From IMG/VR virus record IMGVR_UViG_3300027870_000022, positions 1 to 21,160 of that record: a stretch of 21,160 nucleotides of DNA; one strand, 5' to 3'. Positions 733-21,160 of the stretch are shown here, in pieces. Under the pieces are notes generated by a model that was given only the letters and a program-made list of their open reading frames with translations, was not told the origin of the DNA and searched no databases. The translations under genes were made by a program, and so were the position numbers. The DNA comes from a virus. Numbering within the stretch: the stretch's first letter is position 1; every line of letters begins with the position of its first letter.

Positions 733-908
733 CCATCGTTGTCATTGCTGGCGCGGCAGACGCGCTGGAGTGCCACTCGGGCGGCGGTCTCTGCGCCCTG
801 GAACCCGGCGACGTCCTTGATGGCCCGGAGACAGCCTTCGATCTTCACCGTCTCGGTCACGATAACGTCGGCCTTCTGGCGTGCGTGGGTGATCTGCTGC
901 TCGGTCAT
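720..908 (-). CDS. Small hypothetical phage protein, 62 aa
   Basis: It begins MTEQQITHARQK and ends RASNDNDGWVA. The ATG at 908 overlaps the stop of the upstream GP88-like gene (ATGA), which fixes the start; a longer reading of the same frame would run far into that gene. It is predicted to be soluble and helical. No family is recognised. It is translationally coupled within the leftward operon. Confidence 0.65.
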   Translation of the reverse strand: MTEQQITHARQKADVIVTETVKIEGCLRAIKDVAGFQGAETAARVALQRVCRASNDNDGWVA

Positions 909-2323
909 GCCGCCACCTTCTTGGCGGGGCGGGCGAACATCAGGGCGGTGTGTTCCTTGCAGTAGGACAGGCGGCCAGCGACCGGGGCGCAGCAGTAGGT
1001 CGTCTCCTCGCCGCGACCGATCGCGGGGGAGTTGGTCGGATAGGCGCACTCGCCTGCCTTGCGCGCGACAAGGCCATGAGGGCGCCGGTCGTTGGCGGGA
1101 GCGAGATCATCAGCCGATGGGGCGGCCGGGCCACGGGTCACCGGACGAGGCGTGACCTTCGTCGTGATCGGGATCGGCGGGCGGGGCGCGACAACGGCAG
1201 GCGCAGGGGCGGACGGGCGGTGATCGGAGATGATCTGGTACTGGACCGGCTTGCCACGTCCCTCAGCCGAACGAATGACCTTCAGGGCGCCGCGCTTCTC
1301 CAGCGTCTCCATCGTGAAGCCCATTGAGCCAGACGGAACGCCGGACCCTTTGCAAATCTGTGCCCAGGTCGCTGAGACCATCCCGTCCACATCCGCCGTG
1401 GTGGCGAGGAAGGCCAGAGCCTTTCGGCATCCCTCGGACAGAGGCCGTTCGCCGGGCGCTGCGGCCCGGACCACGGGGACGACGCTCTGGCGCGGCGCGG
1501 GAGCGAGGGGAGCCTCGTCGTTGGCCACCTTCGGGCCGCGGAGCTTCCGGCCATGGCGCAGGAAGGCGATCTTCTTGTCGCGGGCGCCGGTGCTCCAGCA
1601 GAGACCGCAGGAGGCGCAGGCCTCTGTGGCCTTGGTCTGGGCGGGGCAGACGATCGTGTCGGGTAGGTCGGGGTCTTCGTCGACTACGATGGCCTGTGAG
1701 CGCTCCGGGTTGCCGGCGCCGCTGGTGCGGATCGCGAAGCGGGACCATGCACCGTCAGTCAGCACCTTCAGGGCGCGGGCGATGCGGACAGTCTCAGGAT
1801 CAGCGTCGTCGGTCCGCCGGGAGGTGTATCCAAAGACGGTCAACTGAGGGAATTGCTTGAGCAGCGAGGCCCAGATGTAGACGTACTCGACCGAGTAGAA
1901 GTCGCCCAGCACATGAAGGCGGATCAGAAGGCCATCGGGATGGGCTCGGCAGAGCGTCGTGACCTCAGCGATCAACAACCGTTCGAAGTCTGCGTCGGGG
2001 GTGTGGCGCCGGGCAAAGGGCATGGAGTTGCCGTAGCAGGACGCCCACTGCTGGCAGGACCTGGGGCAGGTGGCGCGCTCCTCCAGAGAAAGCTGATAGA
2101 TCGCGTAGCCTGCCAGAGGGCCTTTCAGGACGGCCTTGCCCAGCTTCGTGTTGCTGTGGCCTGAGACGAGGAACCGGGGGCTCTGCGTCGAAGGCGTGAC
2201 CGTCTTCATGAAGATCGTCCGACCCTCGCTAAGCGCAGCGTGGCCTTCTGGCAGGGGCACGACCCGGTCGGGCTCGATCGCCTTTGCCTCGAAGCGGCTG
2301 ACGGTGGAACGGTGGGGCGCCAT
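905..2323 (-). CDS. GP88-like phage protein with internal winged helix and GcrA-like zinc tail, 472 aa
   Basis: Three regions are visible. Residues about 40-265 resemble the phage Gp88 family, with cysteines at 86, 90 and 96 (CPRSCQQWASC) and a second cluster at 226, 236, 239 and 242 followed by KIAFLRHG. Residues about 296-366 look like a winged helix-turn-helix (ATWAQICKGSGVPSGSMG, then TLEKRGALKVI). After a Pro/Ala-rich linker, residues about 424-464 carry C426, C444/C445, C455 and H458, spaced like the C-terminal zinc region of GcrA. The start chosen is ATG at 2323, which forms TAATG with the stop of the upstream GcrA-like gene. An ORF start at 2350 would run into that gene. The role of GP88 is not known. 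The tail suggests DNA or polymerase binding, which is inference. Confidence 0.72.
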   Translation of the reverse strand: MAPHRSTVSRFEAKAIEPDRVVPLPEGHAALSEGRTIFMKTVTPSTQSPRFLVSGHSNTKLGKAVLKGPLAGYAIYQLSLEERATCPRSCQQWASCYGNSMPFARRHTPDADFERLLIAEVTTLCRAHPDGLLIRLHVLGDFYSVEYVYIWASLLKQFPQLTVFGYTSRRTDDADPETVRIARALKVLTDGAWSRFAIRTSGAGNPERSQAIVVDEDPDLPDTIVCPAQTKATEACASCGLCWSTGARDKKIAFLRHGRKLRGPKVANDEAPLAPAPRQSVVPVVRAAAPGERPLSEGCRKALAFLATTADVDGMVSATWAQICKGSGVPSGSMGFTMETLEKRGALKVIRSAEGRGKPVQYQIISDHRPSAPAPAVVAPRPPIPITTKVTPRPVTRGPAAPSADDLAPANDRRPHGLVARKAGECAYPTNSPAIGRGEETTYCCAPVAGRLSYCKEHTALMFARPAKKVAA

Positions 2324-3126
2324 TACGCAGCGCTCCTGAGTTCGTCCCACAGCCCGTCGTTCGCCGGCTTCTTCCGAGGAACGTCGATGCGGTCGAACTT
2401 GGTGAAACTGGCGGCGCGGCGGTCGCCTCGGTCACGGAGAGGCGGCTGAACCGGTGCGAAAGCGATGACGCTGTGGCCCTCGCAGTAGACGCCCCGATGG
2501 ATCGGGTTGCAGCACGACAGCATGGCCAGCCCTTCGCCGATGGGCCATTTGCAGCCGCGCCGGGCGTCGAGGAAGGGAAGGGCGTTCGGACTGGAGACCG
2601 TGACCTTCTCCGACCGGGCTATGGCAGCGCGACCTTCGGCGGCCTTTTCCCTACGGACCTGGGCCGTCGCCGTCGACGTGGCCTGAGACATCAGTGAGAA
2701 CGAACCCGGCGCCTTGGCCTGCGGACCCGGCTTCGGAGGGCGGATATGCGAACGGACGACGGAGGGCGCCTTCTTGCGCGGTGTCCCGTCAGCCGCTTCC
2801 TTGCGCATGTAGCCCAGCCGGTAGAGGCGACCGATCACGGAGTTGCGCGTCGTGCCGGGGATGGCCCGCATGATCTCAGCCGCCGACTTGCCTTGCTTCC
2901 AGAGGCTGACGGCAAGCTCTTCATTTTTCGGGTCTGCCCACACGCCGCAGCGCGGCTGAACACGGGTCCGCTCCGGAAGATCGAGAACACGCCTGCGCCT
3001 TGCGATCGTGTCGTAGGAGAGGCCCAACTCCTTTCCGATGGCGTCGACGCCCAGACCTGAGTTCCAGCCGTCCGTGAGCTTCTGGTCCATGTCTGTGGTC
3101 CAGACCGTTGGTGTTTTCCAGATCAT
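2323..3126 (-). CDS. GcrA-like cell-cycle regulator with an extra N-terminal HTH, 267 aa
   Basis: Host GcrA binds sigma-70 RNA polymerase and activates promoters carrying CcrM-methylated GANTC sites. Here residues about 63-106 match the GcrA N-terminal HTH (WKQGKSAAEI, then TTRNSVIGRLYRLG). Residues 191-224 match its C-terminal motif, with CKWPIGEG, C205/C206, YCEGH and IAFAP. Unusually, a further HTH-like segment (residues about 8-48, LTDGWNSGLGVDAIGKELGL) precedes the GcrA part, so the protein is longer than typical GcrA (about 170 aa). The ATG at 3126 overlaps the RuvC stop (ATGA). It probably redirects host polymerase to methylated phage or host promoters. The family assignment is strong; the role is inferred. 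Confidence 0.88.
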   Translation of the reverse strand: MIWKTPTVWTTDMDQKLTDGWNSGLGVDAIGKELGLSYDTIARRRRVLDLPERTRVQPRCGVWADPKNEELAVSLWKQGKSAAEIMRAIPGTTRNSVIGRLYRLGYMRKEAADGTPRKKAPSVVRSHIRPPKPGPQAKAPGSFSLMSQATSTATAQVRREKAAEGRAAIARSEKVTVSSPNALPFLDARRGCKWPIGEGLAMLSCCNPIHRGVYCEGHSVIAFAPVQPPLRDRGDRRAASFTKFDRIDVPRKKPANDGLWDELRSAA

Positions 3127-3689
3127 GCGGTTCTCCTGAAGTTCATAGGGTCCCAGCGGCCGGCATGGGTCGGGTGGCGAAGGCGAAGAGCGCAGAGCCA
3201 GATCCCGAAGGCATCAGCCTCATCGGAGGCGGCTTCGCCCTGGTGGGTGTAGGTGTGGGGATCGAGACCGAAGGCGCGGCAGGCGCGGACCATGTCCGGC
3301 TTCTTGGCGTTGCCCTTGCCGGTCAGGGCCTGCTTCGCCGATGCAGGCTGGACCTCAGCGCATTCGAGGCCTTGGCGGAAGGCGATGCGCTCCAGTTCCC
3401 CAGCGAGACCCTGCAGCTTTCGGGTCGTGAGGATGCTGACGCCGCCTTCCACCTTCTTGGTCCCCGGATTGTACTTGGCGCGGGGAAGGACCGGCGCTTC
3501 GAAGACCACGAGGGTCGGCTCGACACGGTCGAACAGGCTCAGGATGTGGTCCTCGAAGGCCGCGAGGAAGCGCCCGACGTCGTCACCCGTCGACGGCAGC
3601 CGGAAGTGCTCCAGCGTCGGGATTTCGCCGGTGTCGGCGGCCCCGAAGCAGATGCCGGTCTGAGTGGCGAGGTCGAGCGCGAGGAACAT
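3123..3689 (-). CDS. RuvC-like Holliday junction resolvase, 188 aa
   Basis: The protein has the RNase H-fold acidic residues in the order expected for RuvC: D6 in FLALDLATQTG, E64 in LVVFEAP, and D156 and D159 in ASDEADAFGIW. Length and spacing fit phage and bacterial RuvC enzymes. RuvC-type resolvases cut four-way junctions, which in phages resolves recombination or packaging intermediates. The ATG at 3689 overlaps the upstream stop (TGATG). It is the only clear DNA-processing nuclease in the leftward operon and complements the exonuclease in the rightward operon. Confidence 0.88.
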   Translation of the reverse strand: MFLALDLATQTGICFGAADTGEIPTLEHFRLPSTGDDVGRFLAAFEDHILSLFDRVEPTLVVFEAPVLPRAKYNPGTKKVEGGVSILTTRKLQGLAGELERIAFRQGLECAEVQPASAKQALTGKGNAKKPDMVRACRAFGLDPHTYTHQGEAASDEADAFGIWLCALRLRHPTHAGRWDPMNFRRTA

Positions 3690-4517: not shown

Positions 4518-4843
4518 CACGCGGGCTCCTTCGCAGGCGCGCGGACCGGGTTCGGGTTCTCGATGGTGTTCTCAGCGGCCAGCCAGACCGACCAGTCGCG
4601 GCGCTGGACCTTGCGGAACATGAAGTGCGGGTAAAACCCCTCGTCATCGACCTCGACGCCGAACAGGCCCTCGATGTCGGGATGGGGCGTAAGCCCACGA
4701 ACGACATAGGCGCCGCCGTCGGTCAGGGAGCACGGAGGGGCCTTCGGAAGGAACACGCCGAGCCAGATGTCGTAGAGTTGGCCAAGGATACCGCCGTCGT
4801 CATCGACTGCGATCACCTCATCGCCGGGCTTGAGATCGCACAT
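4517..4843 (-). CDS. Conserved phage hypothetical protein, beta-rich, 108 aa
   Basis: The pattern LKPGDEVIAVDDDG, then GGAYVVRGL, FGVEVDDEG and HFMFRKVQRRD matches a small beta-rich (SH3-like in appearance) protein widespread in alphaproteobacterial prophages as an uncharacterised family. That family resemblance is from memory, not from a search. The ATG at 4843 makes TGATG with the previous stop. The function is unknown. Confidence 0.7.
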   Translation of the reverse strand: MCDLKPGDEVIAVDDDGGILGQLYDIWLGVFLPKAPPCSLTDGGAYVVRGLTPHPDIEGLFGVEVDDEGFYPHFMFRKVQRRDWSVWLAAENTIENPNPVRAPAKEPA

Positions 4844-5319
4844 CAGCGCTTCTCCGTTTTCGATTTGCAGTGAGCCAAAAGGGCCAACAGGGGCCGCAGG
4901 GCGTCATGGATCAGGGGGATCGCCACAGTGCCGTCCATGGCGTCGAACTCGCCGTCGGCGGCGCGGCGGATGATCTCGCCGACCAGCTCGCCGGACTCGG
5001 CGGTGAACGTCGCCAGTTGGGCTTGCAGCGCGACTTGGTCGATCACGCCCATGGGGACGAAGACGCCGCCAGCTTCGAGGGCCAGGTGTTCGGCCAGGGC
5101 ATGGCCGCCGGCCCCAGCGAGCTTGCAGGCCTCGGCATAGGAGAGCTTCGCTTCCTTGCGGCGCTCAACGTCCGGGTCACAGGCGGTGTAGAGCCAGTAG
5201 GGCTGGCGCTCGATGATCTCGGCGGCCTCGTCCAGCGTCCCCACCTGCGAGACGGCATCCGACAGCGCCTTGTGGACGCTGCCATGGGGACGGGGCTTGA
5301 CGGGTTTGAAGGTGGCCAT
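4843..5319 (-). CDS. CII/CP76-like phage regulatory protein, 158 aa
   Basis: Residues about 14-90 follow the layout of phage regulatory protein CII (CP76) relatives: SVHKALSDAVSQVG, a short helix, YWLYTACDPDVERRKEAKLSYAEACKLA, then LALEAGGVFVPM. In that family this region is a helical DNA-binding domain that governs the lysis-lysogeny decision. The remainder (about 95-158) is helical. The gene lies third in the leftward operon behind a Cro-like gene, where lambda places cII. The similarity is by pattern only, so it could instead be a general helical phage DNA-binding protein. Confidence 0.6.
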   Translation of the reverse strand: MATFKPVKPRPHGSVHKALSDAVSQVGTLDEAAEIIERQPYWLYTACDPDVERRKEAKLSYAEACKLAGAGGHALAEHLALEAGGVFVPMGVIDQVALQAQLATFTAESGELVGEIIRRAADGEFDAMDGTVAIPLIHDALRPLLALLAHCKSKTEKR

Positions 5320-5379: not shown

Positions 5380-5652
5380 TCAGGCGATGAGGGGATCGGG
5401 CTGAGACGGAGTAGGCGTGTGATCGTTGGCTGGGACGGGAAGGTGCGGCGGGAGGCGCTGTTCGCGGACGGACGCAACTGCGGTCGTCAGGATTGCCCGT
5501 GCGCACTCGTTGCCGAACTTGACGGTGTGGGCCTGGTCGATGGCGGACTGGAGAAGCCGAAGCGTCTCGCCCTCGTCGGCGCAGGCGTCAGCGGCCAGCA
5601 GCAGGTCCGCCAGACCATCCGACAGCTCCATCACCCGCTCACAGAGCGACAT
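5380..5652 (-). CDS. Small hypothetical protein, 90 aa
   Basis: The start chosen is ATG at 5652 (MSLCERVMELSDGLADLLL) because a GGAG lies just upstream. The longer reading to 5751 begins with a Pro-rich run and would overlap the Cro-like gene. Residues 1-60 are helical; the tail is Pro-rich and contains PANDHTPTPSQ. No family is recognised. It is the second gene of the leftward operon, 34 bases after the Cro-like gene and 60 bases before the CII-like gene. Confidence 0.6.
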   Translation of the reverse strand: MSLCERVMELSDGLADLLLAADACADEGETLRLLQSAIDQAHTVKFGNECARAILTTAVASVREQRLPPHLPVPANDHTPTPSQPDPLIA

Positions 5653-5686
5653 GGACGGCTCCGATGATGCAGGGCGTGGCCATCTG

Positions 5687-5935
5687 TCACGCCGCCTCTG
5701 ATTGGGCGGGGGAGGCGTCGTTGGCGGCGGACCTAACGAGCGCAACGTCATCGTTGAGCGTGGCGGCGTCTATCCGACCTTTGGAAAGCCGCTCGATCTG
5801 CAAGGCCACGGCCACGCTGGCCGATCGGTTCCCGGATTCGAGATCATGAGCCTGTCCGCGGCTTTTCAGGCCGAGGGCGGCTGCGAAAGCCTCAAGCGAG
5901 AGACCAAGCTCTTTTCGGAGGGCGCGAATGTCCAT
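5687..5935 (-). CDS. Cro/YdaS-like HTH regulator, 82 aa
   Basis: Residues 1-60 (MDIRALRKELGLSLEAFAAAL, then VAVALQIERLSKGRIDAATLNDDV) have the short Cro/YdaS-type HTH arrangement, where the last part matches the common AxxIExxTxGxIxxxxL pattern. It ends in AANDASPAQSEAA. The start is set at ATG 5935 because the protein reads as a complete HTH domain from there. In-frame ATGs at 5953 and 5962 would place the operator at 5944-5960 inside the gene. It is the first gene of the leftward operon and divergent from the repressor gene at 6029, the position of lambda cro. Confidence 0.78.
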   Translation of the reverse strand: MDIRALRKELGLSLEAFAAALGLKSRGQAHDLESGNRSASVAVALQIERLSKGRIDAATLNDDVALVRSAANDASPAQSEAA

Positions 5936-5943
5936 GAGCAAGA

Positions 5944-5960
5944 GTTCGCACATGGGAAAC
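5944..5960 (+). promoter_or_regulatory. Operator copy 1 (17 bp)
   Basis: The sequence is GTTCGCACATGGGAAAC, an imperfect palindrome with half-sites GTTCGC and GTTTCC. It lies 8 bases upstream of the Cro-like start and is one of four matching sites in the window. It is probably bound by the repressor and/or the Cro-like protein to control the leftward promoter. Confidence 0.7.
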
Positions 5961-6011
5961 ATTTTCGCAAGCCGGTTGTTCGCCAGCGGCTTAACGACGG
6001 CCGCCTGTTAG

Positions 6012-6028
6012 TTTCGCACAATGCAAAC
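6012..6028 (+). promoter_or_regulatory. Operator copy 2 (17 bp), directly abutting the repressor start
   Basis: The sequence is TTTCGCACAATGCAAAC, matching the other copies except for the first base. It ends one base before the ATG of the repressor gene, so the promoter must overlap or lie just upstream and the transcript has little or no leader. Its centre is 68 bases from copy 1. Confidence 0.68.
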
Positions 6029-6418
6029 ATGGCGAGACAGCGCAAAGGCCGACACGAACTCTACGACCAATACCGAGCCGCGTCCGGCTGGTATCTGGCC
6101 GCTTGGCGTGACTTCAGGAAGCTGACGCTTGAGGAGTTAGCCGAGGAGATCGGATCCTCGAAGGGTTATGTCAGCGACTTGGAAACGGGTGCGGCGCGTC
6201 CAGACCGACCCATTCGCCGGTTCAACCGCGACTTGGTCGAAAGCGTTTCGAAGGCATTGAGTGTGACTGGTGGTCGCCTGATCGACGTCAACCCGTTCAC
6301 AATGGATGCTGACGCCGATCAGTTTGATGCTGCGCTGAAAGCCCTCGATCCGATGCAGCGACAGGCCGTTTTCCAGTTGGCACAGACACTTGGCGGCAAA
6401 ACAGGGACAGACGGATGA
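6029..6418 (+). CDS. XRE-family HTH repressor (CI-like), 129 aa
   Basis: Residues about 30-60 form an XRE helix-turn-helix (FRKLTLEELAEEIGSSKGYVSDLETG). The rest is a short helical domain (FDAALKALDPMQRQAVFQLAQTL). There is no S24/LexA peptidase domain, so RecA-triggered self-cleavage is not expected. The ATG at 6029 directly follows an operator and has no Shine-Dalgarno sequence, as in leaderless lambda cI messages. Longer readings of this frame run back through the divergent Cro-like gene and are rejected. It is the likely prophage repressor acting on the four 17-bp operators. Which of the two HTH proteins binds which site cannot be told from sequence. Confidence 0.8.
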   Translation: MARQRKGRHELYDQYRAASGWYLAAWRDFRKLTLEELAEEIGSSKGYVSDLETGAARPDRPIRRFNRDLVESVSKALSVTGGRLIDVNPFTMDADADQFDAALKALDPMQRQAVFQLAQTLGGKTGTDG

Positions 6419-6807
6419 TCGCAACCGTTCTCGCGGCTGCAATGGCGCTCCAATCCGCCCAGCAGTTCGATCTTGCCTGCACAGGGTCGTCGTTCAGTCG
6501 CCTCCAGGGCGGCCGGGGCGAGGCATTCAATGTGACGCTGCGGATCGACCTCGCCGCCAATCGCTGGTGCGACGGAGATTGTTCGGCTCCAATGGCTATC
6601 GTGAGCGCCACGCCTGACGCCATCGTCCTCGAAGATGTCCAGCCGGCGCCACGGGGCCTCAATATCCGGCGCAAGACTGAGATCAATCGGGTCACCGGCG
6701 TCTACGACTCGTATTTCTCTGCGATCGGATCGACCGTTCAGCAGGGCCGGCAAGAAGCTCGGTGCGAAGTGAAGCCATTCTCAGGGATGCCGCAAGCGCG
6801 CTTTTGA
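6415..6807 (+). CDS. Small exported protein in the repressor operon, 130 aa
   Basis: The N-terminus MIATVLAAAMALQSAQQ is hydrophobic and ends in an AxxAQ-like signal peptidase I site, without a strong basic start. The remainder is soluble and beta-rich with cysteines near 22, 52, 56 and 117, which could form disulfides in the periplasm. The ATG overlaps the repressor stop (ATGA), so the gene is probably expressed in the lysogen. No family is recognised with confidence. Its position matches rexAB in lambda, so lysogenic conversion or exclusion of other phages is a reasonable but untested guess. Confidence 0.68.
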   Translation: MIATVLAAAMALQSAQQFDLACTGSSFSRLQGGRGEAFNVTLRIDLAANRWCDGDCSAPMAIVSATPDAIVLEDVQPAPRGLNIRRKTEINRVTGVYDSYFSAIGSTVQQGRQEARCEVKPFSGMPQARF

Positions 6808-6850
6808 CGCCTTGGAGGTAGGGCGCCGGTCGAAGCAGCGTCCATTTGTC

Positions 6851-7120
6851 CTACGCCGCGTCAGCCTCCCAAGGGTCGGGCGCCGGGGGATCGATGAGCA
6901 TCGCCGCCGCCGGGACCTCGCCCAAAATCAATAGAACCTCGGGCTCGCTTTCGGTCTCGGCGTCGTCGTCGATGCACTGCTGAAACACGAGCACGCCGTC
7001 AGCCTGGACCATCAAGATCCGGCCGCCTTCCTCGGCGTCCGTCGCGCACAGGAAGCCATAGGCCTCGCCGGGGCGGCCTTCCCAAAAGGGCTGTGCGATA
7101 TAGCGGAGCCGGCGCGTCAT
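6851..7120 (-). CDS. Small acidic hypothetical protein, 89 aa
   Basis: It begins MTRRLRYIAQPFWEGRPG and ends in an acidic, Pro-rich tail (DPPAPDPWEADAA). The start is ATG at 7120, 10 bases after GGGAGG; a TTG at 7138 would be inside that ribosome binding site. It faces the exported-protein gene across a 43-base gap and is divergent from the rightward operon. Similar small proteins occur in alphaproteobacterial phages and chromosomes without known function. Three GANTC sites lie in its upstream region. Confidence 0.62.
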   Translation of the reverse strand: MTRRLRYIAQPFWEGRPGEAYGFLCATDAEEGGRILMVQADGVLVFQQCIDDDAETESEPEVLLILGEVPAAAMLIDPPAPDPWEADAA

Positions 7121-7149
7121 GACTTTCTGTCCTCCCAATCCTTAACAGC

Positions 7150-7181
7150 GATTCGACACAGGTAGACGGTGGAGTCGAGTC
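7150..7181. promoter_or_regulatory. Cluster of three GANTC (CcrM) sites
   Basis: GATTC at 7150-7154, GAGTC at 7172-7176 and GAGTC at 7177-7181 lie within 32 bases of the divergent control region. GANTC is the CcrM methylation site, and GcrA activates promoters carrying it. The cluster suggests cell-cycle or GcrA input to the 7120 gene and possibly to the rightward operon. Confidence 0.5.
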
Positions 7182-7219
7182 CCCCGTCTGAAAGGTGCGA
7201 CCATACCTGTCGCATTGAC

Positions 7220-7236
7220 GTTCGCACACCGCAAAC
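7220..7236 (+). promoter_or_regulatory. Operator copy 3 (17 bp)
   Basis: The sequence is GTTCGCACACCGCAAAC. It overlaps the end of a TTGACG (7215-7220) that could be a -35 element. It is the third match to the operator palindrome and lies upstream of the rightward operon. Confidence 0.68.
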
Positions 7237-7253
7237 AAAACGCTTGCGATAAG

Positions 7254-7270
7254 GTTTCCCATATGCGAAC
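7254..7270 (-). promoter_or_regulatory. Operator copy 4 (17 bp, reverse orientation)
   Basis: On the minus strand the sequence is GTTCGCATATGGGAAAC, nearly identical to copy 1. Its centre is 34 bases from copy 3. TTGCGA at 7244-7249 is a possible -35 element for a promoter overlapping this site. It lies 27 bases before the first ATG of the rightward operon. Confidence 0.68.
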
Positions 7271-7296
7271 AATCTCCCATCACAAGGGAGACGAAC

Positions 7297-7608
7297 ATGT
7301 CGCTCAAGACCACCAAGACCGAAGCCCGAGACGCGCTCGACTGGTTCCGCGCCAGCTGCCCGATGCCGTCGGAAGAGAACCGCGCGCACCGCCAGAAGCT
7401 GGAAGCCGCCGCCCGTGCCGAGGAAGAGACCGACCCGGACTACTGCCTGAAAACGGCGGAATGGCTTGAGCGGATCGCCGCCGAGAAAATCGCCGCTGGC
7501 GGTCGCTACGAGCCCGCCGCGTCCAACGAAAATCTGGCTGAGGCCGCGCGCCTCCGCGCCATCGCCGCCGCCCTGACGGCTCCCTTCACCTATGCCGAGG
7601 CCGCGTGA
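7297..7608 (+). CDS. Hypothetical protein, first gene of the rightward operon, 103 aa
   Basis: The ATG follows AAGGGAG with good spacing. The protein is helical and charged (EARDALDWFRASCPMPSEENRAHRQKLE); no family is recognised. As the first gene behind the operators at 7220-7270 it should be among the earliest expressed. Its position matches lambda N or kil-type genes, but nothing in the sequence supports a function. Confidence 0.65.
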   Translation: MSLKTTKTEARDALDWFRASCPMPSEENRAHRQKLEAAARAEEETDPDYCLKTAEWLERIAAEKIAAGGRYEPAASNENLAEAARLRAIAAALTAPFTYAEAA

Positions 7609-7952
7609 TGTCGATGAACCCCATCGGAGGCGAGACCTATCGCCGCCTCGACGCCGTCCTGACGCCCATGGTCGACCGCTTGTCGGTGTCCGTGCTGGCC
7701 TCGGCCGCCAACGAGGTCGCCCCGCGCTTCGTCGCTGAGGGCAGGGACGTGGTCTCCGTCGGCTCCGGCAAGCGCCGGTCGCCTCAACAGGCTCGCGACT
7801 ATCTGCGCTTCGTCGCGGAAGACGCCCTGTCCGTGCGCGAGGACATCGTCGCCGAGGTCGACATCGTCATGCTTGGCGACCTGATCCGAGCCATCCGTGA
7901 CGCCGAGCGCGGCGAACCGACGCCACCGGCTGCGATTGCGAGGGCAGCATGA
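7608..7952 (+). CDS. Hypothetical protein, 114 aa
   Basis: The ATG at 7608 makes TGATG with the previous stop; a GTG one codon earlier is possible. The protein is helical (YRRLDAVLTPMVDRLSVSVLA, then RDYLRFVAEDALSVREDIVAEVDIVMLGDLIRAIRDAE). No family is recognised. It is coupled to its neighbours at both ends. Confidence 0.62.
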   Translation: MSMNPIGGETYRRLDAVLTPMVDRLSVSVLASAANEVAPRFVAEGRDVVSVGSGKRRSPQQARDYLRFVAEDALSVREDIVAEVDIVMLGDLIRAIRDAERGEPTPPAAIARAA

Positions 7953-8131
7953 GGATCGAAGGCGATCTGGGCGTCTTCATGGGCGCCATCATCCTTTGGA
8001 TTTCGGCCGTGACCTGCGGCTTGGAATGCATCCTCGCCGGGGTCGAAAACGACTGGGGAAGCTGCGCTTTCAAGTTCGTCGCGACCCTTGGCCTTGTCTC
8101 CATCGGACGTCGCGTCTGGAGGGCCGCATGA
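7949..8131 (+). CDS. Small membrane protein, 60 aa
   Basis: It has two likely membrane segments, about residues 8-30 (GVFMGAIILWISAVTCGLEC) and about 41-53 (FKFVATLGLVSIG). Its ATG overlaps the upstream stop (ATGA). No family is recognised. It may act on the host membrane early in infection, which is inferred only from hydrophobicity and position. Confidence 0.58.
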   Translation: MRIEGDLGVFMGAIILWISAVTCGLECILAGVENDWGSCAFKFVATLGLVSIGRRVWRAA

Positions 8132-8385
8132 CCGGCGCTCCGCACCCCTTGGGCGTCGAGAGCCATCCCGATTGGGAGGCCGTGAACGAGCGCTATCAGG
8201 CCAACGCCAACGACAACGAATGGCTGTCGCAGTTCGTCGCGCCCCGGGAAATCCCGATGGACGACGACCACGACGATCCGGTTGAGCCCCGCGACATCCG
8301 GCCCTCGCTGCTGACGTTCGTCGTCTGCCTGGCCCTTATGATCGGCGGTATGCTGGCCGTGATCCTGCCGGCGGTTCTGAAGTGA
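8128..8385 (+). CDS. Tail-anchored small membrane protein, 85 aa
   Basis: The soluble N-terminal 58 residues include NANDNEW and an acidic run (MDDDHDDPVEPRD). A single strong membrane segment lies at about residues 61-82 (LTFVVCLALMIGGMLAVILP), close to the C-terminus. The ATG overlaps the previous stop. The pattern suggests a C-tail-anchored inner-membrane protein. Its function is unknown. Confidence 0.6.
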   Translation: MTGAPHPLGVESHPDWEAVNERYQANANDNEWLSQFVAPREIPMDDDHDDPVEPRDIRPSLLTFVVCLALMIGGMLAVILPAVLK

Positions 8386-9077
8386 GCGCCGTCTATCATC
8401 GCGATCTCGCTCAAGGCTCCGGCGACTGGCTGGAAATCCGGCGAGGTCTGCTGACCGCGAGCGAAATGCGTCTGCTGGTCACCCCCGCGACCATGAAAGC
8501 AGCGGCGAACGACAACGCCCGTGCCCACCTGTTCACGCTCGTTTCGCAGCGGATCGCTGGCTACGTCGAGGACACCTACACCGGCTATGACATGCTGCGC
8601 GGGCATGAGGACGAGATCGACGCCCGGATCGCCTATGCGCAGAACTACGCGCCTGTCGAGGACTGCGGTTTCATCACGAACGACCGCTGGGGCTTCACCA
8701 TCGGCTATTCGCCGGACGGTCTGGTCGGCGACGACGGGCTGATCGAGTGCAAGTCCCGCAAGCACAAGTTTCAGGTCGAGACGATCCTCAAGTCGGTCGC
8801 CGAGGACAAGGTCCCTGCTGAGTTCCTGATCCAGTGCCAGACCGGCTTGCTGGTCAGTGAGCGGAAGTGGCTGGACTTCATCAGCTACAGCGCCGGCCTC
8901 TTCATGGCGACGGTCCGGGTCTATCCCGATCCCGTGATCCAGGAGGCCATCGTGTCCATCGCGACCGATGCCGAGATCAAGATCAACCAGATGCACGCCG
9001 AGTTTCAGCGCGTCTGCAAATCCGGCGTCCGACTGCTGCCGACAGAGCGTCGGCAAGATCAGGAAATCAACATATGA
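8382..9077 (+). CDS. YqaJ-family (lambda exonuclease-like) recombination nuclease, 231 aa
   Basis: The protein shows the YqaJ/lambda-Exo pattern: GSGDWLEIRRGLLTASEM at the N-terminus, catalytic D112 in GYSPDGLV, E122 and K124 in LIECKS, and a downstream glutamine helix (FLIQCQTGLLVS, Q151/Q153). These are PD-(D/E)XK nucleases that resect double-strand ends 5' to 3' and hand the strand to an annealing protein. The GTG start at 8382 overlaps the previous stop (GTGA). The length is typical of the family. The next gene, coupled by ATGA, is the natural candidate partner. Confidence 0.92.
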   Translation: MSAVYHRDLAQGSGDWLEIRRGLLTASEMRLLVTPATMKAAANDNARAHLFTLVSQRIAGYVEDTYTGYDMLRGHEDEIDARIAYAQNYAPVEDCGFITNDRWGFTIGYSPDGLVGDDGLIECKSRKHKFQVETILKSVAEDKVPAEFLIQCQTGLLVSERKWLDFISYSAGLFMATVRVYPDPVIQEAIVSIATDAEIKINQMHAEFQRVCKSGVRLLPTERRQDQEINI

Positions 9078-11242: not shown

Positions 11243-11984
11243 CTTTGTCCACTCCGGGCAAGAGCCCTCCGTACCCGCCGATCAGTCGTCCGGTGTCACC
11301 ACTCCCGTCAAAGAGCGGCCCATCCTGTTCAGCGGCCCCATGGTGCGGGCGTTGCTGGCGGGCCGAAAGACGCAGACCCGGCGTGTCGTGAAGGGCGTCC
11401 CATCATGGGATCACTACGGCAAGGACATCATGGACTGGGGCCTCTCAGGCATCCACCAGTTCGAAAATGATCTGGACGGAACCGATCGCTGGGCAGTGGA
11501 CGTCCAGACCGATGTTGACGACTACTCCCGCACGCTGATCCGCTGCCCCTACGGCAAGCCGGGCGACCGGCTCTATGTCCGCGAGACGTGGAAGCCGCAT
11601 TCGCTCTTCGCCGACATGAAGCCGCGCGACGTCCCGTTCAGCCGGATATTCTACCGGGCCGACGACGCCTACGCGCCCAGCAATACGCCGTGGAAGCCGG
11701 GTATTCATCAGCCGCGCTGGGCCAGCCGCCTCGTGCTGGAGATCACCGAGGTCCGGGTCGAGAGACTGAACGACTGCTCCGAGGATGACGCCCGCGCCGA
11801 GGGCACGCAGGAACCGACCCTGGTTCCGATCATCGGCGCCTGCTGGTCCGAGCGAGACGCCTACGCGAAGCTCTGGGAGGCCATCAACGGCGCTGGATCA
11901 TGGTCCGCCAACCCGTGGGTCTGGGCTGTCTCCTTCCGCGTGCTGACGACCTCTGACGCCACTGGAGAAGGGGAGGGGGTGTGA
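11235..11984 (+). CDS. ASCH-like (PUA-fold) phage protein, 249 aa
   Basis: The pattern ILFSGPMVRALLAGRKTQTRRVV, CPYGKPGDRLYVRETW, HQPRWASRLVLEITEVRVERLNDCSEDDARAEG and LWEAINGAGSWSANPWVWAVSF is that of ASCH-like proteins common in tailed phages. ASCH domains have a PUA-like fold and are thought to bind RNA or modified nucleotides. The ATG at 11235 gives an 8-base overlap with the previous gene. It sits immediately before three predicted modification enzymes, which makes a nucleic-acid recognition role attractive but unproven. Confidence 0.8.
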   Translation: MNSFVHSGQEPSVPADQSSGVTTPVKERPILFSGPMVRALLAGRKTQTRRVVKGVPSWDHYGKDIMDWGLSGIHQFENDLDGTDRWAVDVQTDVDDYSRTLIRCPYGKPGDRLYVRETWKPHSLFADMKPRDVPFSRIFYRADDAYAPSNTPWKPGIHQPRWASRLVLEITEVRVERLNDCSEDDARAEGTQEPTLVPIIGACWSERDAYAKLWEAINGAGSWSANPWVWAVSFRVLTTSDATGEGEGV

Positions 11985-12871
11985 CTGTCGCCGCTCCCCT
12001 CGCTGTCGATCTGTTCTGTGGCCTTGGCGGCTGGACCGAAGGCCTGCTGGCTGAGGGCTGGCGCTGCCGTGGCTACGACATCGAGAGCCATGAATACGGC
12101 GACGAGCGCTATCCCGGCGAGCTGATCCTGGCTGATGTCATGGCCCTGACCGGCGCCGACGTGGCGGATGCTGACCTGATCGTCGCCTCGCCGCCCTGTC
12201 AGGAGTTCAGCTACATGGCGATGCCGTGGAGCCGGGCCAAGCAGATTGGCCGCGCGCTGCGGGGGCAGGACGAGTTTCCCGAGGGCTATCGGGGCTCCCG
12301 CACCATAGCCGACCTGACGGCCCTGTTCGACGCCTGCTTCCGCATCCAGCGTGAGGCAAACGAGATCCGGGCCGCTCGCGGTCAGGTGCCGATCCCCATG
12401 GTGGTCGAGAACGTCCGCGGCGCGATCCCGTGGGTTGGGCCGGCAGCGTGGAGCTACGGATCGTTCTACCTCTGGGGCGACGTGCCAGCGCTGATGCCTG
12501 CACCGCAGCGCGCGCGAAAGAACGGGGACCTCGGAGGAGGTTCGTGGTTCGCGATCGGATCGCCGGGGCAGACCAACGTCAACAGCAACCCAGACGGCCG
12601 TAAAGTCCCAGCCTTGGACGGCGCGCGGCGCACGGACAAGGGCAAGGGCGCCAGGTTCACGTCACGCGATTGCGGTGTCGAGCGCGACATCACCAGCGGC
12701 CGCAAGGGTGGCGGCGACTGGTTCGGCTCGGGCGATGATTGCTCGCTCCAGCGGAAGGCGTCCTCGGGCTCCAGCGCTCGAAAGGCCGCCAGCGCGAAGA
12801 TCGCGAAGATCCCGATCGCCCTCGGCTCGCACATCGCGCGCGTCTATCGCCCCATGTCGGAGGCCGCATGA
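11981..12871 (+). CDS. C5 cytosine-specific DNA methyltransferase (orphan), 296 aa
   Basis: Motif I is DLFCGLGG (residues 10-17), motif IV is SPPCQEFS with nucleophile C73, motif VI is VVENVRG (E143), a QRARKN segment near 176 could be motif VIII, and GSHIARVY near 283 resembles motif X. The GTG start overlaps the previous stop (GTGA). No restriction endonuclease is adjacent, so it is an orphan phage enzyme. The region 183-270, where target recognition lies, is short and rich in Gly, Ser and Lys, with GGGSWF and GGGDWF echoes, and the target cannot be guessed. Methylation of phage DNA against host restriction is the usual role. Confidence 0.88.
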   Translation: MTVAAPLAVDLFCGLGGWTEGLLAEGWRCRGYDIESHEYGDERYPGELILADVMALTGADVADADLIVASPPCQEFSYMAMPWSRAKQIGRALRGQDEFPEGYRGSRTIADLTALFDACFRIQREANEIRAARGQVPIPMVVENVRGAIPWVGPAAWSYGSFYLWGDVPALMPAPQRARKNGDLGGGSWFAIGSPGQTNVNSNPDGRKVPALDGARRTDKGKGARFTSRDCGVERDITSGRKGGGDWFGSGDDCSLQRKASSGSSARKAASAKIAKIPIALGSHIARVYRPMSEAA

Positions 12872-13749
12872 CCGTCTCCCGTGCCGCCTCGCACCGCCAG
12901 ATCGAGATTTCCCGCCAGCAACAGAAGGAGGCTCTGCATGGTCGGCCCGCGTCGTCGGGTTCGCTTCTTCAGGATGAACTTCGGGTCGGGGTTGCCTATC
13001 ACGGCACCCCGATTACCCCTCGCACCGTTCTGGAAGCGATGGGCGCGCGGGACTACTGCGTCTCCTTCTACCGGCCCGACGACGTCGAATGGATCGACGC
13101 CAACGCCCGGTCGTGGTTCGCCGACAACGGCGTCTTCTCGTTCTGGATGGCCGCGCTGAAAGCCAAGCGCGACATGGAGATGAGCCGCGAATATCTCGAC
13201 GCCTATTACGCCTTCGTGCGCCGCTGGGTCCATGAGGGCTCCGGGGCCTGCAAGTGGGCGGTGATCCCCGACCCCATCGGAACGGGCACCCAGGAACTCG
13301 ACGCCCTGCTGCGTGAGTGGCCCGCCGACCTCGCTGACTACGGCGTGCCGGTCTATCACCTCGACGAGCCGCTGGAGCGCGCCCTGATGCTGCTGGAGCG
13401 CTATGGGCGCCTGTGCGTCGGCGCGACCGGGGAATATCGAGTGATCCTGTCGCCCGACTTTTGCGGCCGGATGGATGACCTGTTCGACGCCGTCGCCGGA
13501 TCGTTCAGCGAGGTCCCGCCGATCCACATGTTCCGCGGCCTCCAGCTCCTGAAGCCGGAACACCCTTGGCCCATCACGACGGCCGACAGCACCGACCGGG
13601 CCCGCAATCACAACCGGCTGAAATGCCTTGGCGACCGCTATTTCTGGGCCGTCAAGCAGACCGCCGACCGCTGGGACCACATGGCGGCCCGCCGGACCTT
13701 CCAATGGCCGCCAGCCCACCAGCACGAACTTTTCGGAGCCGCCGCATGA
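12868..13749 (+). CDS. TGT/DpdA-like putative DNA transglycosylase, 293 aa
   Basis: The protein resembles a phage family related to tRNA-guanine transglycosylase. Visible motifs are GVAYHGTPITPR (from 41), WFADNGVFSFW with D86 (compare the DSGGF aspartate of TGT), WAVIPDPIG with D135, VYHLDEP with H164, LCVGATGEY, and TTADSTDRARNHNR with D240 (compare the TGT nucleophile region DCV...TRSGRNG). DpdA enzymes exchange guanine for a 7-deazaguanine in DNA. The first 40 residues are a poorly patterned extension, so the true start may be later, although ATG 12868 gives ATGA coupling. No preQ0 synthesis genes are in the window, so a base would have to come from the host. The fold assignment is by motif only. 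Confidence 0.62.
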   Translation: MTVSRAASHRQIEISRQQQKEALHGRPASSGSLLQDELRVGVAYHGTPITPRTVLEAMGARDYCVSFYRPDDVEWIDANARSWFADNGVFSFWMAALKAKRDMEMSREYLDAYYAFVRRWVHEGSGACKWAVIPDPIGTGTQELDALLREWPADLADYGVPVYHLDEPLERALMLLERYGRLCVGATGEYRVILSPDFCGRMDDLFDAVAGSFSEVPPIHMFRGLQLLKPEHPWPITTADSTDRARNHNRLKCLGDRYFWAVKQTADRWDHMAARRTFQWPPAHQHELFGAAA

Positions 13750-13937
13750 CGCCGGCCGATCATCACCGCCACACGGCTGCTGCCTGTCGTACCGCCGCTG
13801 AGATCTGGCGCAACGACGGGTCCAAGCCCCACGCCGATTTTGCCTCGGTTCTCGATGCCTGGGCCGCCCGATCCGACCGCAGAGCCCTTGAGGCTGAGAG
13901 CGCTAACCCTTTCGAACAGATGGAGCTATTCGCATGA
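13746..13937 (+). CDS. Small hypothetical protein, 63 aa
   Basis: The protein begins MTPADHHRHTAAACRTAAEIW and ends in FEQMELFA. It has ATGA overlaps at both ends, between the DpdA-like and radical SAM genes. It is helical and soluble. No family is recognised. Its tight coupling between two predicted modification enzymes makes an accessory role possible. Confidence 0.58.
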   Translation: MTPADHHRHTAAACRTAAEIWRNDGSKPHADFASVLDAWAARSDRRALEAESANPFEQMELFA

Positions 13938-14911
13938 ACGAACAAACCGACTGCTGGCCTGCAATCAAGCGCATCGACGACGACGCGGAGAACGTCTGCA
14001 AGTTCGTATACACCCGCCCTGACGCCGTCGTGGAGTCGGTCCTGTACCGCTACCCGACCTATCTGGAGCGCACGGTCATCTGCTGTTCGACGCAGTCCGG
14101 GTGCCCTGTCGGGTGCCGGTTCTGCGGTGCGGGCGACTATTTCGTCCGCTCCCTGACGGCTGCTGAGATCGTCGAGCAGGCCGTCTACAGCGTTCAGGTG
14201 GCCGAGCGGGCTGAGGGCATCAAGGCCGCTGATATGGGTCGCCTCCAGATCATGTTCATGTCGATGGGCGAGCCCCTGTTGAACATGAAGGGTTTGGTCC
14301 CGGCACTGCGCGAACTCTACCACCTTTACCCGAACGCGGCGCTGCTGATCTCCACCTCGGCCCCGGCGATCAACTACGACGAGGTCATTGCGATCTCGCG
14401 GGAAATCCCGACCATCGGGCTCCAGTTCTCGGTTCACGAGTCCACCGACGTCGCCCGCGATGCGCTGGTCCCGTTCAAGAAGAAGCTGACCCTGCGCCAG
14501 ATCGCCGACGAGGGCGAGCGCTGGTTCGATGCCACCGGGCGTCACCCGTTCTTTAACTACTGCGCCCACGACGGCAACGCCTCTCAGGAGGACGCTGACC
14601 GCATCGAAGCGCTCTACGACCCGAAGGTCTGGTGCGCGACCGTGAGCGTGGTCTGTGAGCGCGACGAGGGGATGCCGAAGACCAACCAGCATCAGCGCGG
14701 CCTCGCCAGTGACTTCGCCTCCAAGATGGTCGCAGCGGGCTACGACACCCGCATGTTCGACCCCGCCGGCCAAGACACCATCGGCGGCGGCTGCGGCCAA
14801 CTCTGGTTCGTGCAGGAGTGGATGCGCGAACACCCGGACCAGGCTCGGCCCTCCATCGGTCATGGTCGCCAGATCGTTCACGCTCCGGAAGCCGCCGAGG
14901 TCTCGCAATGA
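13934..14911 (+). CDS. RlmN/Cfr-like radical SAM methyltransferase, 325 aa
   Basis: The radical SAM cluster is C57-x3-C61-x2-C64 in SGCPVGCRFCGAG. The SAM-binding GEP motif is MSMGEPLLN (residues 110-118). C50, seven residues before C57, matches the accessory cysteine of RlmN, and C287 in GGGCGQLW matches its methyl-carrying catalytic cysteine (ACGQL). FSVHESTDVARDALVPF also fits RlmN/Cfr. Those enzymes methylate C2 or C8 of adenine in rRNA or tRNA. The N-terminal accessory domain of about 90 residues is short here. The ATG overlaps the previous stop. The substrate is unknown: host or phage RNA, or DNA given its neighbours. All key cysteines are present, so it looks active. Confidence 0.85.
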   Translation: MNEQTDCWPAIKRIDDDAENVCKFVYTRPDAVVESVLYRYPTYLERTVICCSTQSGCPVGCRFCGAGDYFVRSLTAAEIVEQAVYSVQVAERAEGIKAADMGRLQIMFMSMGEPLLNMKGLVPALRELYHLYPNAALLISTSAPAINYDEVIAISREIPTIGLQFSVHESTDVARDALVPFKKKLTLRQIADEGERWFDATGRHPFFNYCAHDGNASQEDADRIEALYDPKVWCATVSVVCERDEGMPKTNQHQRGLASDFASKMVAAGYDTRMFDPAGQDTIGGGCGQLWFVQEWMREHPDQARPSIGHGRQIVHAPEAAEVSQ

Positions 14912-17859: not shown

Positions 17860-18194
17860 CCGCCCCTACCATCCCCACCCATTCAGAACTGAGGGCGATC
17901 CGACAGCGTCAGCCGCGCGAAGATGCTTTCGCCCCGGCATTCTACGATAGCCTCGTGACCCATGCTCTGGACGCGTTGCGCGAGGGTCGTCGCTTTGAAC
18001 TGAACGCAGACGGTGCGTGGTCGATCATCCAACAGGCGCATCAGGATCGAAAGGACGTCCTCTCCCTTCTCGACCAGATAGCCGCACTCCAGATCGAAAC
18101 TGCTGAAATGCGGGCTCAACTGGAAAGCAGGACAATCGCCCTCATCGCAGCCAAAGCCCTTTCCACCCCTTCTACTGATAGCGGGAGAGACTGA
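17856..18194 (+). CDS. Hypothetical helical protein, 112 aa
   Basis: The N-terminal part (HSELRAIRQRQPREDAFAPAFYDSLVTHALDALREGRRFEL) is followed by a likely coiled coil (VLSLLDQIAALQIETAEMRAQLESRTI). The ATG overlaps the previous stop. No family is recognised. Confidence 0.6.
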   Translation: MTAPTIPTHSELRAIRQRQPREDAFAPAFYDSLVTHALDALREGRRFELNADGAWSIIQQAHQDRKDVLSLLDQIAALQIETAEMRAQLESRTIALIAAKALSTPSTDSGRD

Positions 18195-18391
18195 TGAGCG
18201 CTGCGAACGACAACGGCTTCAAGATCTCCTACTCGCCGGCCGAAGCCGCGGCGGCGACCGCCCTGGGGCTGACGACCATCTACGCGATGATGAAGGACGG
18301 GCGCCTGAAGCGGGTCAAGATCGGCTCCCGGACGCTTATCCCCAGGTCTTCTCTGGAGGCATTGTTTGGCGAGGACGGCGAAGCGGCTTAG
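18194..18391 (+). CDS. Excisionase-like HTH (HTH_17) protein, 65 aa
   Basis: Residues 12-58 (YSPAEAAAATALGLTTIYAMMKDG, then VKIGSRTLIPRSSLEAL) form the small winged HTH typical of excisionases and helix-turn-helix family 17. The TGATG overlap couples it to the upstream gene. It is the last gene of the rightward operon and lies about 60 bases from the putative attachment site, as expected for xis. A transcriptional regulator of the same fold is the alternative. Confidence 0.78.
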   Translation: MSAANDNGFKISYSPAEAAAATALGLTTIYAMMKDGRLKRVKIGSRTLIPRSSLEALFGEDGEAA

Positions 18392-18410
18392 GACAGAGCT
18401 TAGGACAGAG
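18387..18410 (+). repeat. 12-bp perfect tandem repeat at the end of the excisionase-like gene
   Basis: CTTAGGACAGAG occurs twice head to tail, the first copy spanning the stop codon. The GGACAGAG of the second copy can pair with CTCTGTCC at 18461-18468 inside the tRNA-like segment. This could be an arm-type binding site near att or part of a weak hairpin. Its function is unknown. Confidence 0.45.
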
Positions 18411-18451
18411 GGCAGGGGCGCCCCGCAAACCCAGCGCCAGCGCTACGACTG

Positions 18452-18472
18452 CGAATCCCTCTCTGTCCGCCA
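18452..18472 (+). other. Candidate right attachment site (3' end of a tRNA-Ser gene)
   Basis: CGAATCCCTCTCTGTCCGCC followed by A matches the usual T-arm/acceptor end of bacterial tRNA-Ser genes (CGAATCCC...TCTCCGCCA) with about one difference. No tRNA body precedes it: the upstream bases do not form a T-stem, anticodon arm or D-arm. Phages often integrate into tRNA 3' ends and leave such a fragment at the far junction. It directly follows an excisionase-like gene. Confidence 0.5.
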
Positions 18473-18876
18473 CGATGCCTTTTCCTTCATGCGTTCACCG
18501 GATCAGCGGCTGGCGAGTGGCTGGTGATTAGTGGCTAGTGGCTGGTGGCGAGGGTCGAGAGTCCACCGTGTCCCGAAAAATTGAAACTGGAGACACTGGA
18601 CCCTTGGGCGGATTTCAGCGGGAGCGGCGGGCGTGTGTGTGCTTGGGCTGTCGCGCCTGGACTCGGGTCGGTCGCGCAGTCGAATGACGATGTGAAAGAC
18701 CGGGAGGGCGGCCGCGAGCGGTTCGCGCGCCTCAGTGTCTACAAGGGGTCGCCAAGTGCCGGTTCAAGGCCTGTGCGGCGGAGAAATGCAGCGGCCGGAA
18801 GGGGCGGGTGTCTCCGCCGAGGATCGCGAAGGGGCGAGAGTATCAGGGTCGGGAGTGTCGCTCCGGCAATGCGCAG
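18473..18876. other. Non-coding junction region, no convincing gene
   Basis: About 400 bases between the putative att and the DUF2971 stop. The open frames here have low-complexity Arg/Gly/Ser-rich translations, no start signals and no family motifs, and none shows tyrosine-recombinase residues. The stretch contains a short imperfect repeat (18506-18551). It may be host intergenic sequence or decayed DNA. Confidence 0.5.
18506..18551 (+). repeat. Imperfect 11-bp tandem repeat
   Basis: Units of the type GTGGCTGGTGA occur about four times in degenerate form (18506, 18517, 18531 and 18538). No gene or motif is associated with it; slipped replication in intergenic DNA is the simplest explanation. 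Confidence 0.4.
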
Positions 18877-19851
18877 CTACCACTGCCGGAGGGGGATGCC
18901 TGATGGCCAAATCCGTTCCGCGGGGTTTTCGACTCCTGCCTCTGCAAGAAGTACAGCGAAGGCATCAAAAGTGACGAAGGGGTCCTCCGTCGGACCAATG
19001 ATTAACCTGTAAAGTAGGTCCGGAATTGCTGCGCCGTTTAGGCCGTGTTCGATATCGTTCACCAGCGGGAGCTTCTGAATTACTTGTGGGACGCCCCGCA
19101 CAGTCTGGACAAATGGAATGACGACGGGCGAGCGCGCGACGTTCGGTGAATAAATGACGCGCCATTCGCGTTCTTCGCTGAACGCGGGATGCTTAGTGCA
19201 CAGTACCGTAAAGCGAAGGACCATAAACATCATGTCTCGGATTGCTTCCGCCGGGACTAGTTCAAATGCGTCGCGCTTAGCGATTATCCCGTCCGCAGTC
19301 CGGTCGAATTGCTGTTCCACCATTTCGGTATCGCCATAGAACACTGGGGCAGAGTAGGCATGAAGGTTGTCGGTCTCAGTCTCAAAAGGCGTGCGATTGA
19401 GAACCAAAGCGACGCCATTGCGACCGCCGTAGGCCCGCCACATCGATAAGCGACCAAGATTATCCTCGTCAGGCCAGTGTTCTGACAGGCTAGTCAGGAA
19501 AGTGTTATTCTCGAGATCTCGCTGCCACGACGTAAAGAGGGTTTCGATGTCGGTGATGATGCCCGGATACAAGCCCTCGAGAACAGCCTTCAACTTCTCG
19601 CCGCCGGGGGCTTTCCATGCATCGAAAACACACTTTTTGCCGTGATGTATTTCCGAGAAATCATTCATGGTGATCGCGTTTCGCATCCAGACCGCCTTGT
19701 TCTGGATGATGCTCATTGCGACCTCTGCGGAGGTGTAGTGAGCGAAGCGAACGTTATTTTCGATAACCTCGTCACGTCGCTGCACAGCGTCAGTGAGGAA
19801 GATCGAATTTAATAGGCGGACCATTTCCGCTTCTTCTTCTTCCGCGCCCAT
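18877..19851 (-). CDS. DUF2971 family protein, 324 aa
   Basis: The protein shows the DUF2971 layout: VRFAHYTSAEVAMSIIQNKAVW, RNAITMNDFSEIHHG, FLTSLSEHW, LSMWRAYGGRNGVALVLN, FTVLCTKHPAFSEEREWRVIY, and a basic/hydrophobic end (LLYRLIIGPTED). GGGGAG lies just before the ATG at 19851. Its base composition is visibly lower in G+C than the phage genes or acs, suggesting recent transfer. DUF2971 proteins have no settled biochemistry but are frequent in accessory and defence-rich regions. It lies outside the putative att, so it is either cargo of an older insertion or a separate island gene. A weak promoter (TTGGTC-N18-TGTTAG) may lie upstream. Confidence 0.82.
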   Translation of the reverse strand: MGAEEEEAEMVRLLNSIFLTDAVQRRDEVIENNVRFAHYTSAEVAMSIIQNKAVWMRNAITMNDFSEIHHGKKCVFDAWKAPGGEKLKAVLEGLYPGIITDIETLFTSWQRDLENNTFLTSLSEHWPDEDNLGRLSMWRAYGGRNGVALVLNRTPFETETDNLHAYSAPVFYGDTEMVEQQFDRTADGIIAKRDAFELVPAEAIRDMMFMVLRFTVLCTKHPAFSEEREWRVIYSPNVARSPVVIPFVQTVRGVPQVIQKLPLVNDIEHGLNGAAIPDLLYRLIIGPTEDPFVTFDAFAVLLAEAGVENPAERIWPSGIPLRQW

Positions 19852-19936
19852 TCTGCTCCCCGAAAGACCCCAGGGCAGCCTAACATGCAGAAGCTCGAAA
19901 CTCGACCAAACGTAGATTTTGCTACGCGGCCAAGAA

Positions 19937-19955
19937 GGCCGACGCGAGCTCGGCC
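19937..19955 (-). terminator. Possible terminator of acs
   Basis: GGCCGA (19937-19942) pairs with TCGGCC (19950-19955) over a 7-base loop. On the minus strand the hairpin is followed by TTCTT. It lies 17 bases beyond the acs stop. The stem is short and the U-run interrupted, so this is a modest candidate. Confidence 0.4.
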
Positions 19956-19971
19956 AAATAGGCGTGCCGCC

Positions 19972-21160
<1,189 letters not shown>

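Follow-up and report, generated by a model that had tools for sequence, protein, structure and literature searches.

A putative temperate-phage immunity region on the lambda plan, with 17-bp palindromes at a fixed 34-bp spacing

The 21,160-nt stretch of viral DNA analysed here (hereafter the window) very probably carries the immunity region of a temperate phage built on the lambda plan, in which 17-bp palindromes are the putative repressor operators. The evidence for a lambda-type region with two groups of operators is strong: the sites, their spacing and their flanking genes are conserved in relatives, and a CII-like gene and genes for an exonuclease and an excisionase are present. The region is ordinary in principle; the switch layout is a variant in its details. 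Temperate-phage operators and promoters of Caulobacterales and similar bacteria are poorly characterised so far, and this layout was not found described in the part of the literature covered, for these operator letters, for a Caulobacterales switch or for the operator spacing.

Genes of the region

The following genes form the switch and the operons around it:

4843..5319, minus strand: CII-like transcriptional activator, third gene of the leftward operon (PHROG 101 CII-like, E 2e-9)
5687..5935, minus strand: Cro-like HTH_3 protein of 82 aa, first gene of the leftward operon (Pfam HTH_3, E 1.4e-8; homologues in the same place in relatives)
6029..6418, plus strand: CI-like repressor of 129 aa, HTH_31/HTH_3 followed by two C-terminal helices (Pfam, PHROGs)
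6415..6807, plus strand: second gene of the repressor operon (rex position), overlapping the repressor stop (ATGA)
6851..7120, minus strand: conserved small protein, between the repressor operon and the right promoter
7297..7608, plus strand: first gene of the rightward early operon, an ORF with no family match in the libraries searched
8382..9077, plus strand: YqaJ/RecE-like exonuclease of the rightward operon (Pfam YqaJ, E 1.4e-12; PHROG 149, E 5e-23)
18194..18391, plus strand: excisionase-like HTH_17 protein, distal end of the rightward row (E 4.3e-9 with NCBIfam excise, above cut-off)

The AlphaFold model of the repressor (pLDDT 82) consists of the HTH helices and two C-terminal helices, and its closest solved folds, with marginal E-values, are SinR, ClgR and small phage repressors. 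The Pfam search found the HTH only and no S24 peptidase domain. The second gene of the leftward operon, between the Cro-like and CII-like genes, has no assigned function, and the match of the CII-like protein to Pfam Phage_CP76 is below cut-off. The protein at the rex position has a hydrophobic N-terminus, possibly a signal peptide, and a homologue in one relative (L023, 42% identity). The small protein encoded by 6851..7120 has homologues in the same place in nine relatives (44–64% identity) and no match in isolated phages or in any family library searched; its predicted fold is confident, with no convincing match in the PDB.

The sequence-only reading had described a mirror-image lambda-type region. 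Its lambda-type part is well supported, given the conservation in relatives and the CII-like, exonuclease and excisionase genes. On the other strand, the order is xis-exo-[PL]-(second gene)-repressor-[PRM/PR]-cro-cII, which is that of lambda; the term mirror-image therefore has no biological meaning and reflects the strand of the record only.

Several further genes were observed. The leftward operon encodes a protein of the GcrA family (2323-3126, minus strand), to which sigma cofactors of the host cell cycle belong, and a GP88 protein whose tail is weakly GcrA-like (905-2350, minus strand), with an MT-A70 methyltransferase at the end of the record. The rightward row encodes a cytosine methylase-like protein, a radical SAM protein and a phage protein resembling queuine tRNA-ribosyltransferase (11981-14911, plus strand). 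Positions 18391-21160, after the excisionase-like gene, hold no integrase but a DUF2971 gene and an acetyl-CoA synthetase-like fragment, and are probably host flank.

Four putative operators in the window

Four 17-bp sites, named by the lambda positions that they would occupy, were located:

5944..5960, plus strand: operator on the Cro-like side (lambda OR1 position), GTTCGCACATGGGAAAC; found by pattern and matrix
6012..6028, plus strand: operator on the repressor side (lambda OR3 position), TTTCGCACAATGCAAAC; abuts the repressor ATG
7220..7236, plus strand: upstream operator of the right-operon pair (lambda OL2 position), GTTCGCACACCGCAAAC; 34-bp pair in relatives
7254..7270, minus strand: downstream operator of the right-operon pair (lambda OL1 position), GTTCGCATATGGGAAAC; 34-bp pair in relatives

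These are the four copies that had been proposed from the sequence, and each was recovered at its position and on its strand. The proposed centre-to-centre distances of 68 bp (5944/6012) and 34 bp (7220/7254) are both exact. When KTTCGCAYANNGNAAAC was searched over the whole window with up to two mismatches, the four operators were the only matches. Shuffled windows gave a mean of 0.21 matches and none of 100 shuffles gave four, in a test done again with a slightly altered pattern. A matrix built from the four operators scores them at 24.8–27.2 bits, the next best position of the window reaching 12.8. In addition, 5944-5983 and 7231-7270 are inverted copies of each other, 83% complementary over 40 nt.

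The sites had been described as a conserved TTCGCA half joined to a G-[CG]-AAAC-type half. The sites are real, but the operator is better read as an imperfect palindrome, GTTYGC-N5-GCRAAC, perfect forms of which are present in relatives (e.g. GTTCGCACAGTGCGAAC); moreover, a half-operator at 5978, described below, had been overlooked.

The pair at the divergent genes might also belong to an autoregulated HTH pair of the toxin-antitoxin or control-protein type and not to a phage switch. The Cro-like protein indeed gives weak matches to YdaS toxin, HipB and HigA models, all of them under the cut-offs. However, another operator pair is found 1.2 kb away, in front of a phage recombination operon, cro is followed by a CII-like gene, and phage contigs show the layout again, all of which makes such an origin very improbable.

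Conservation of the layout in relatives of the repressor

Relatives of the repressor were collected from IMG/VR and from Caulobacterales genomes (loci L005-L008, L010-L013, L014-L028 and L034). In the 390 genomes of the family (Caulobacterales genomes), a relative was found at E 1e-12 in only 10; this distribution is rare and of the prophage type. With a matrix made from the sites of the window alone, most loci of relatives have sites in two pairs: one spans the divergent starts at a spacing of exactly 68 bp, and the second, spaced exactly 34 bp, precedes the other early operon. This is the layout that had been proposed for the window, i.e. two sites flanking the Cro-like and repressor starts and two before the exo...xis operon. 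The same window-only matrix gave 49 matches at a score of at least 14 in 16 loci of relatives (141 kb), against 0–4 in ten shuffles; the loci have a common origin, L014, L016 and L017 being near copies, and counts by locus are therefore non-independent. At this score, the close spacings in the 16 loci are 68 bp (10 cases), 34 bp (6), 35 bp (2) and 26, 61 and 69 bp (one each). Two loci, L012 and L026, show a distance of 26 bp on the repressor side, the Cro side still being at about 35 bp. In the related switches of L046 and L065, the paired operators are separated by 44 and 45 bp, which amounts to 34 bp plus one helical turn.

Many related phages thus share the layout, including some in which the repressor or the sequence of the sites differs. 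Repressors with an S24 domain (L013, E 1e-17; weakly, L024) share the operator layout with repressors that lack it, and the DNA layout is therefore kept across repressors with and without self-cleavage. No isolated phage shows DNA similarity to positions 5600-8200 of the window. Cyanophage HTH proteins with 26% identity were discarded as candidates, their locus (L009) having no matching sites. A search of the viral contigs with exact peptide patterns of the Cro-like protein found nothing, yet relatives of this protein adjoin repressor homologues.

This recurrence refutes the view that the sites are chance repeats. Nothing beyond the shortness of the sites speaks for that view, and the shuffles without four sites, the relatives and the gene-blind scan presented below all speak against it; its probability is practically nil.

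Rarity of the palindrome outside the switch bears on the binding protein. The sequence-only reading would have been refuted by many copies elsewhere in the host. The palindrome proved to be rare in the genomes that carry relatives: in G001 (2.8 Mb), it occurs at 7 places, 4 of them inside the prophage switch. In nine viral records, eight of which have a match, the plain palindrome is practically confined to the switch. The phage could have borrowed a host regulator, for example LexA or CtrA, as alphaproteobacterial phages are known to use CtrA (PMC9437464). This rarity argues against it, as do the absence from the window of the CtrA site TTAA-N7-TTAA and the occurrence of a LexA-type direct repeat, GTTC-N7-GTTC, only at 3130, far from the switch; binding by a host regulator thus appears highly unlikely.

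Another explanation is that only the Cro-like protein uses the palindromes as operators, and that the 6029 protein acts elsewhere or through the Cro-like protein. The latter has a clear HTH_3 domain and adjoins the sites, and the HTH helices of both proteins are alike (SRGQAHDLE and SKGYVSDLE). However, one site lies immediately before the 6029 gene, at offset 0 from its start, the layout tracks relatives of the 6029 protein across very different neighbours, and one locus (L011) keeps the operators although no Cro-like ORF was recognised there. Exclusive use of the sites by the Cro-like protein is thus unlikely, though less so than binding by a host regulator. When the recognition helices of the repressor and of the Cro-like protein were compared by eye for co-variation, few changes were seen among relatives. 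Which HTH protein binds is something that we infer from conservation and helix similarity only.

Promoter cassettes and the middle half-operator

Four further elements are predicted between the operators:

5968..5970, minus strand: TTG within the presumed -35 box of the Cro-like gene's leftward promoter, set 10 bp ahead of the operator (18/18 loci including the window)
5978..5994, plus strand: predicted middle half-operator, GTTCGCCAGCGGCTTAA; its GTTCG half is kept and its other half lies beside the presumed repressor -35
5994..5999, plus strand: weak presumed -35 of the repressor promoter, ACGACG, with CACAAT 17 bp downstream (GAC kept here in 15/18 loci)
7244..7246, plus strand: TTG within the presumed -35 box of the promoter of the rightward operon, set 10 bp ahead of the operator (17/17 loci including the window)

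In the aligned cassettes, a TTG lies exactly 10 bp before the inner operator in 35 of 35 cases (18/18 on the Cro side, 17/17 on the right side). As judged from these alignments, the right-operon pair and the Cro-side pair are copies of one promoter cassette made of two operators 34 bp apart and a -35-like TTG. A scan found no consensus sigma-70 promoter, the -10 boxes being poor matches.

The start codons also keep a fixed geometry. The ATG of the repressor is at offset 0 from the operator in 14 of 18 loci, and that of the Cro-like gene is 8 nt from its operator in 13 of 18, the window being included in both counts. The repressor promoter would have CACAAT at 6017-6022 as its -10 box, which places the predicted transcription start at the ATG itself. 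The natural reading is a leaderless repressor mRNA, as with the leaderless cI mRNA that lambda makes from PRM.

The half-site GTTCGC at 5978 lies exactly 34 bp from both 5944 and 6012, at the midpoint of the 68-bp pair. By score alone it is weak, ranking 73-174 of 42,288 in the matrix scan, but GTTCG is invariant at the exact equivalent position in 11 of 11 loci. The left half of this middle site, towards the Cro-like gene, holds 10.3 bits of information and the right half 4.1 bits; in L014, L016 and L017 the site is a nearly full palindrome. The weak half is continuous with (C/T)GAC, whose GAC keeps a single offset in 15 of the 18 loci; we take this GAC to belong to the -35 box of the repressor promoter. 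The midway position and the invariant GTTCG thus indicate that the divergent region has three positions, at 34 + 34 bp. A third right-hand site was considered at 7186 (minus strand), 34 bp before 7220, where the sequence ranks 10th in the window; it was left uncounted because it has no counterpart in relatives.

Gene-blind scan of viral contigs

Pairs of perfect-arm palindromes 19–49 bp apart were searched for in 2.9 million viral contigs, genes being ignored, and 53 stretches were obtained. Counted by record (n = 53), the commonest spacing is 34 bp (15), followed by 35 (7), 21 (7) and 42 bp (5); the 21- and 42-bp spacings come largely from one tandem-repeat group. A TTG lies at -10 in 13 of the 14 distinct 34-bp pairs, in 3 of 6 pairs at 35 bp and in one pair each at 33, 41, 44 and 45 bp, while no pair spaced 21–32 or 36–39 bp has one. 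A relative of the repressor or Cro type is present in the fetched stretch of 16 of the 22 records with a 34- or 35-bp pair. Five viral records (L048, L060, L068, L073 and L092) hold GTTCG-N7-CGAAC tandem arrays in 21-bp steps, apparently unrelated to the switch.

The fixed geometry provides a largely sequence-independent rule for finding such switches, and predicts transcription starts and immunity groups. The spacings (26, 33–35 and 44–45 bp) and repressor types form a natural series with which the needs of cooperative repression can be probed.

A model of the switch

The following model can be drawn. The 129-aa HTH repressor (6029), and probably the Cro-like protein (5935) too, would bind the 17-bp palindromes. 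At each early promoter (cro-cII and recombination-xis), two operators 34 bp apart would bracket the -35 box. The inner operator covers the region downstream of this box, so that a bound dimer would block the polymerase, and the outer one, 34 bp upstream, would leave room for another dimer, which might bind cooperatively. The outer site of the divergent region (5978) would be common to the repressor promoter, and it is cut down to a half-site where the presumed repressor -35 meets it. A repressor bound there could stimulate its own promoter because the centre of the site is at -43, i.e. 43 bp upstream of the repressor ATG and predicted start, much as lambda OR2 lies near -42 of PRM. Binding at 6012 would turn off the repressor's own promoter. 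Binding by the 6029 and 5935 proteins, cooperativity, self-activation, leaderless starts, competition by Cro and the mode of induction are all inferred from this arrangement.

RecA-triggered induction cannot be assumed, since the repressor of the window lacks an S24 domain, and RecA cleavage is probably not the route here. Our guess is that another protein disrupts the pair of C-terminal helices of the repressor. More broadly, the 34-bp pair, together with a -35 box at a constant 10 bp ahead of its inner operator, could be the conserved cassette of a distinct family of switches. In this family, the operator sequence and the repressor C-terminus (with or without S24) would be swapped, geometry more than sequence would be under selection, and the members with short repressors would be induced otherwise than by RecA cleavage. 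We consider the chances of this broader proposal to be evenly balanced.

Comparison with known systems

The immunity region of lambda is organised as OL-PL, rex-cI-PRM-OR-PR-cro-cII, and its operators are 17-bp palindromes 23–24 bp apart. The window resembles it in having two groups of 17-bp palindromes at both early operons with the repressor gene between them, and divergent repressor and cro genes with three operator positions (5944, the half-site at 5978, and 6012). The resemblance extends to a repressor ATG at the predicted mRNA start, a middle site near -42/-43 of the repressor promoter, cro followed by cII, and exo and xis in the other operon, behind 7220/7254. In contrast to lambda, the centres are 34 bp apart, the middle site is a half-site where lambda has three full sites, the repressor has 129 aa and no S24 self-cleavage domain, and the start of the Cro-like gene, too, is close to its operator (8 bp). 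In addition, the region contains the small conserved reverse gene (6851-7120), and no N-like antiterminator, integrase or replication (O/P) gene was identified in the window.

The RtrA, RtrB and TgrL proteins of Caulobacter and phiCbK (PMC10688885) are likewise HTH XRE proteins from the same host group, with sites made of a strong and a weak half. They differ in being regulators of adhesin and phage production, no immunity region being shown for them, and the likeness is one of description, the letters of the motif not being given.

The Microcystis phages Mae-JY28 and Mae-JY04 (PP438420.1, PP395637.1) encode a protein 53% identical to the Cro-like protein of the window, recorded as hypothetical. 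In both phages the operator is GTTTC-N7-GAAAC and the repressor is different. In Mae-JY28, the homologue of the Cro-like protein adjoins a gene annotated 'CI repressor', whose ATG abuts an operator as in the window; the outer operators are separated by 69 bp, the Cro-like gene has its ATG at 8 bp from an operator, and a TTG lies 10 bp before the inner operator. As far as these sequences indicate, the geometry outlasts the sequence.
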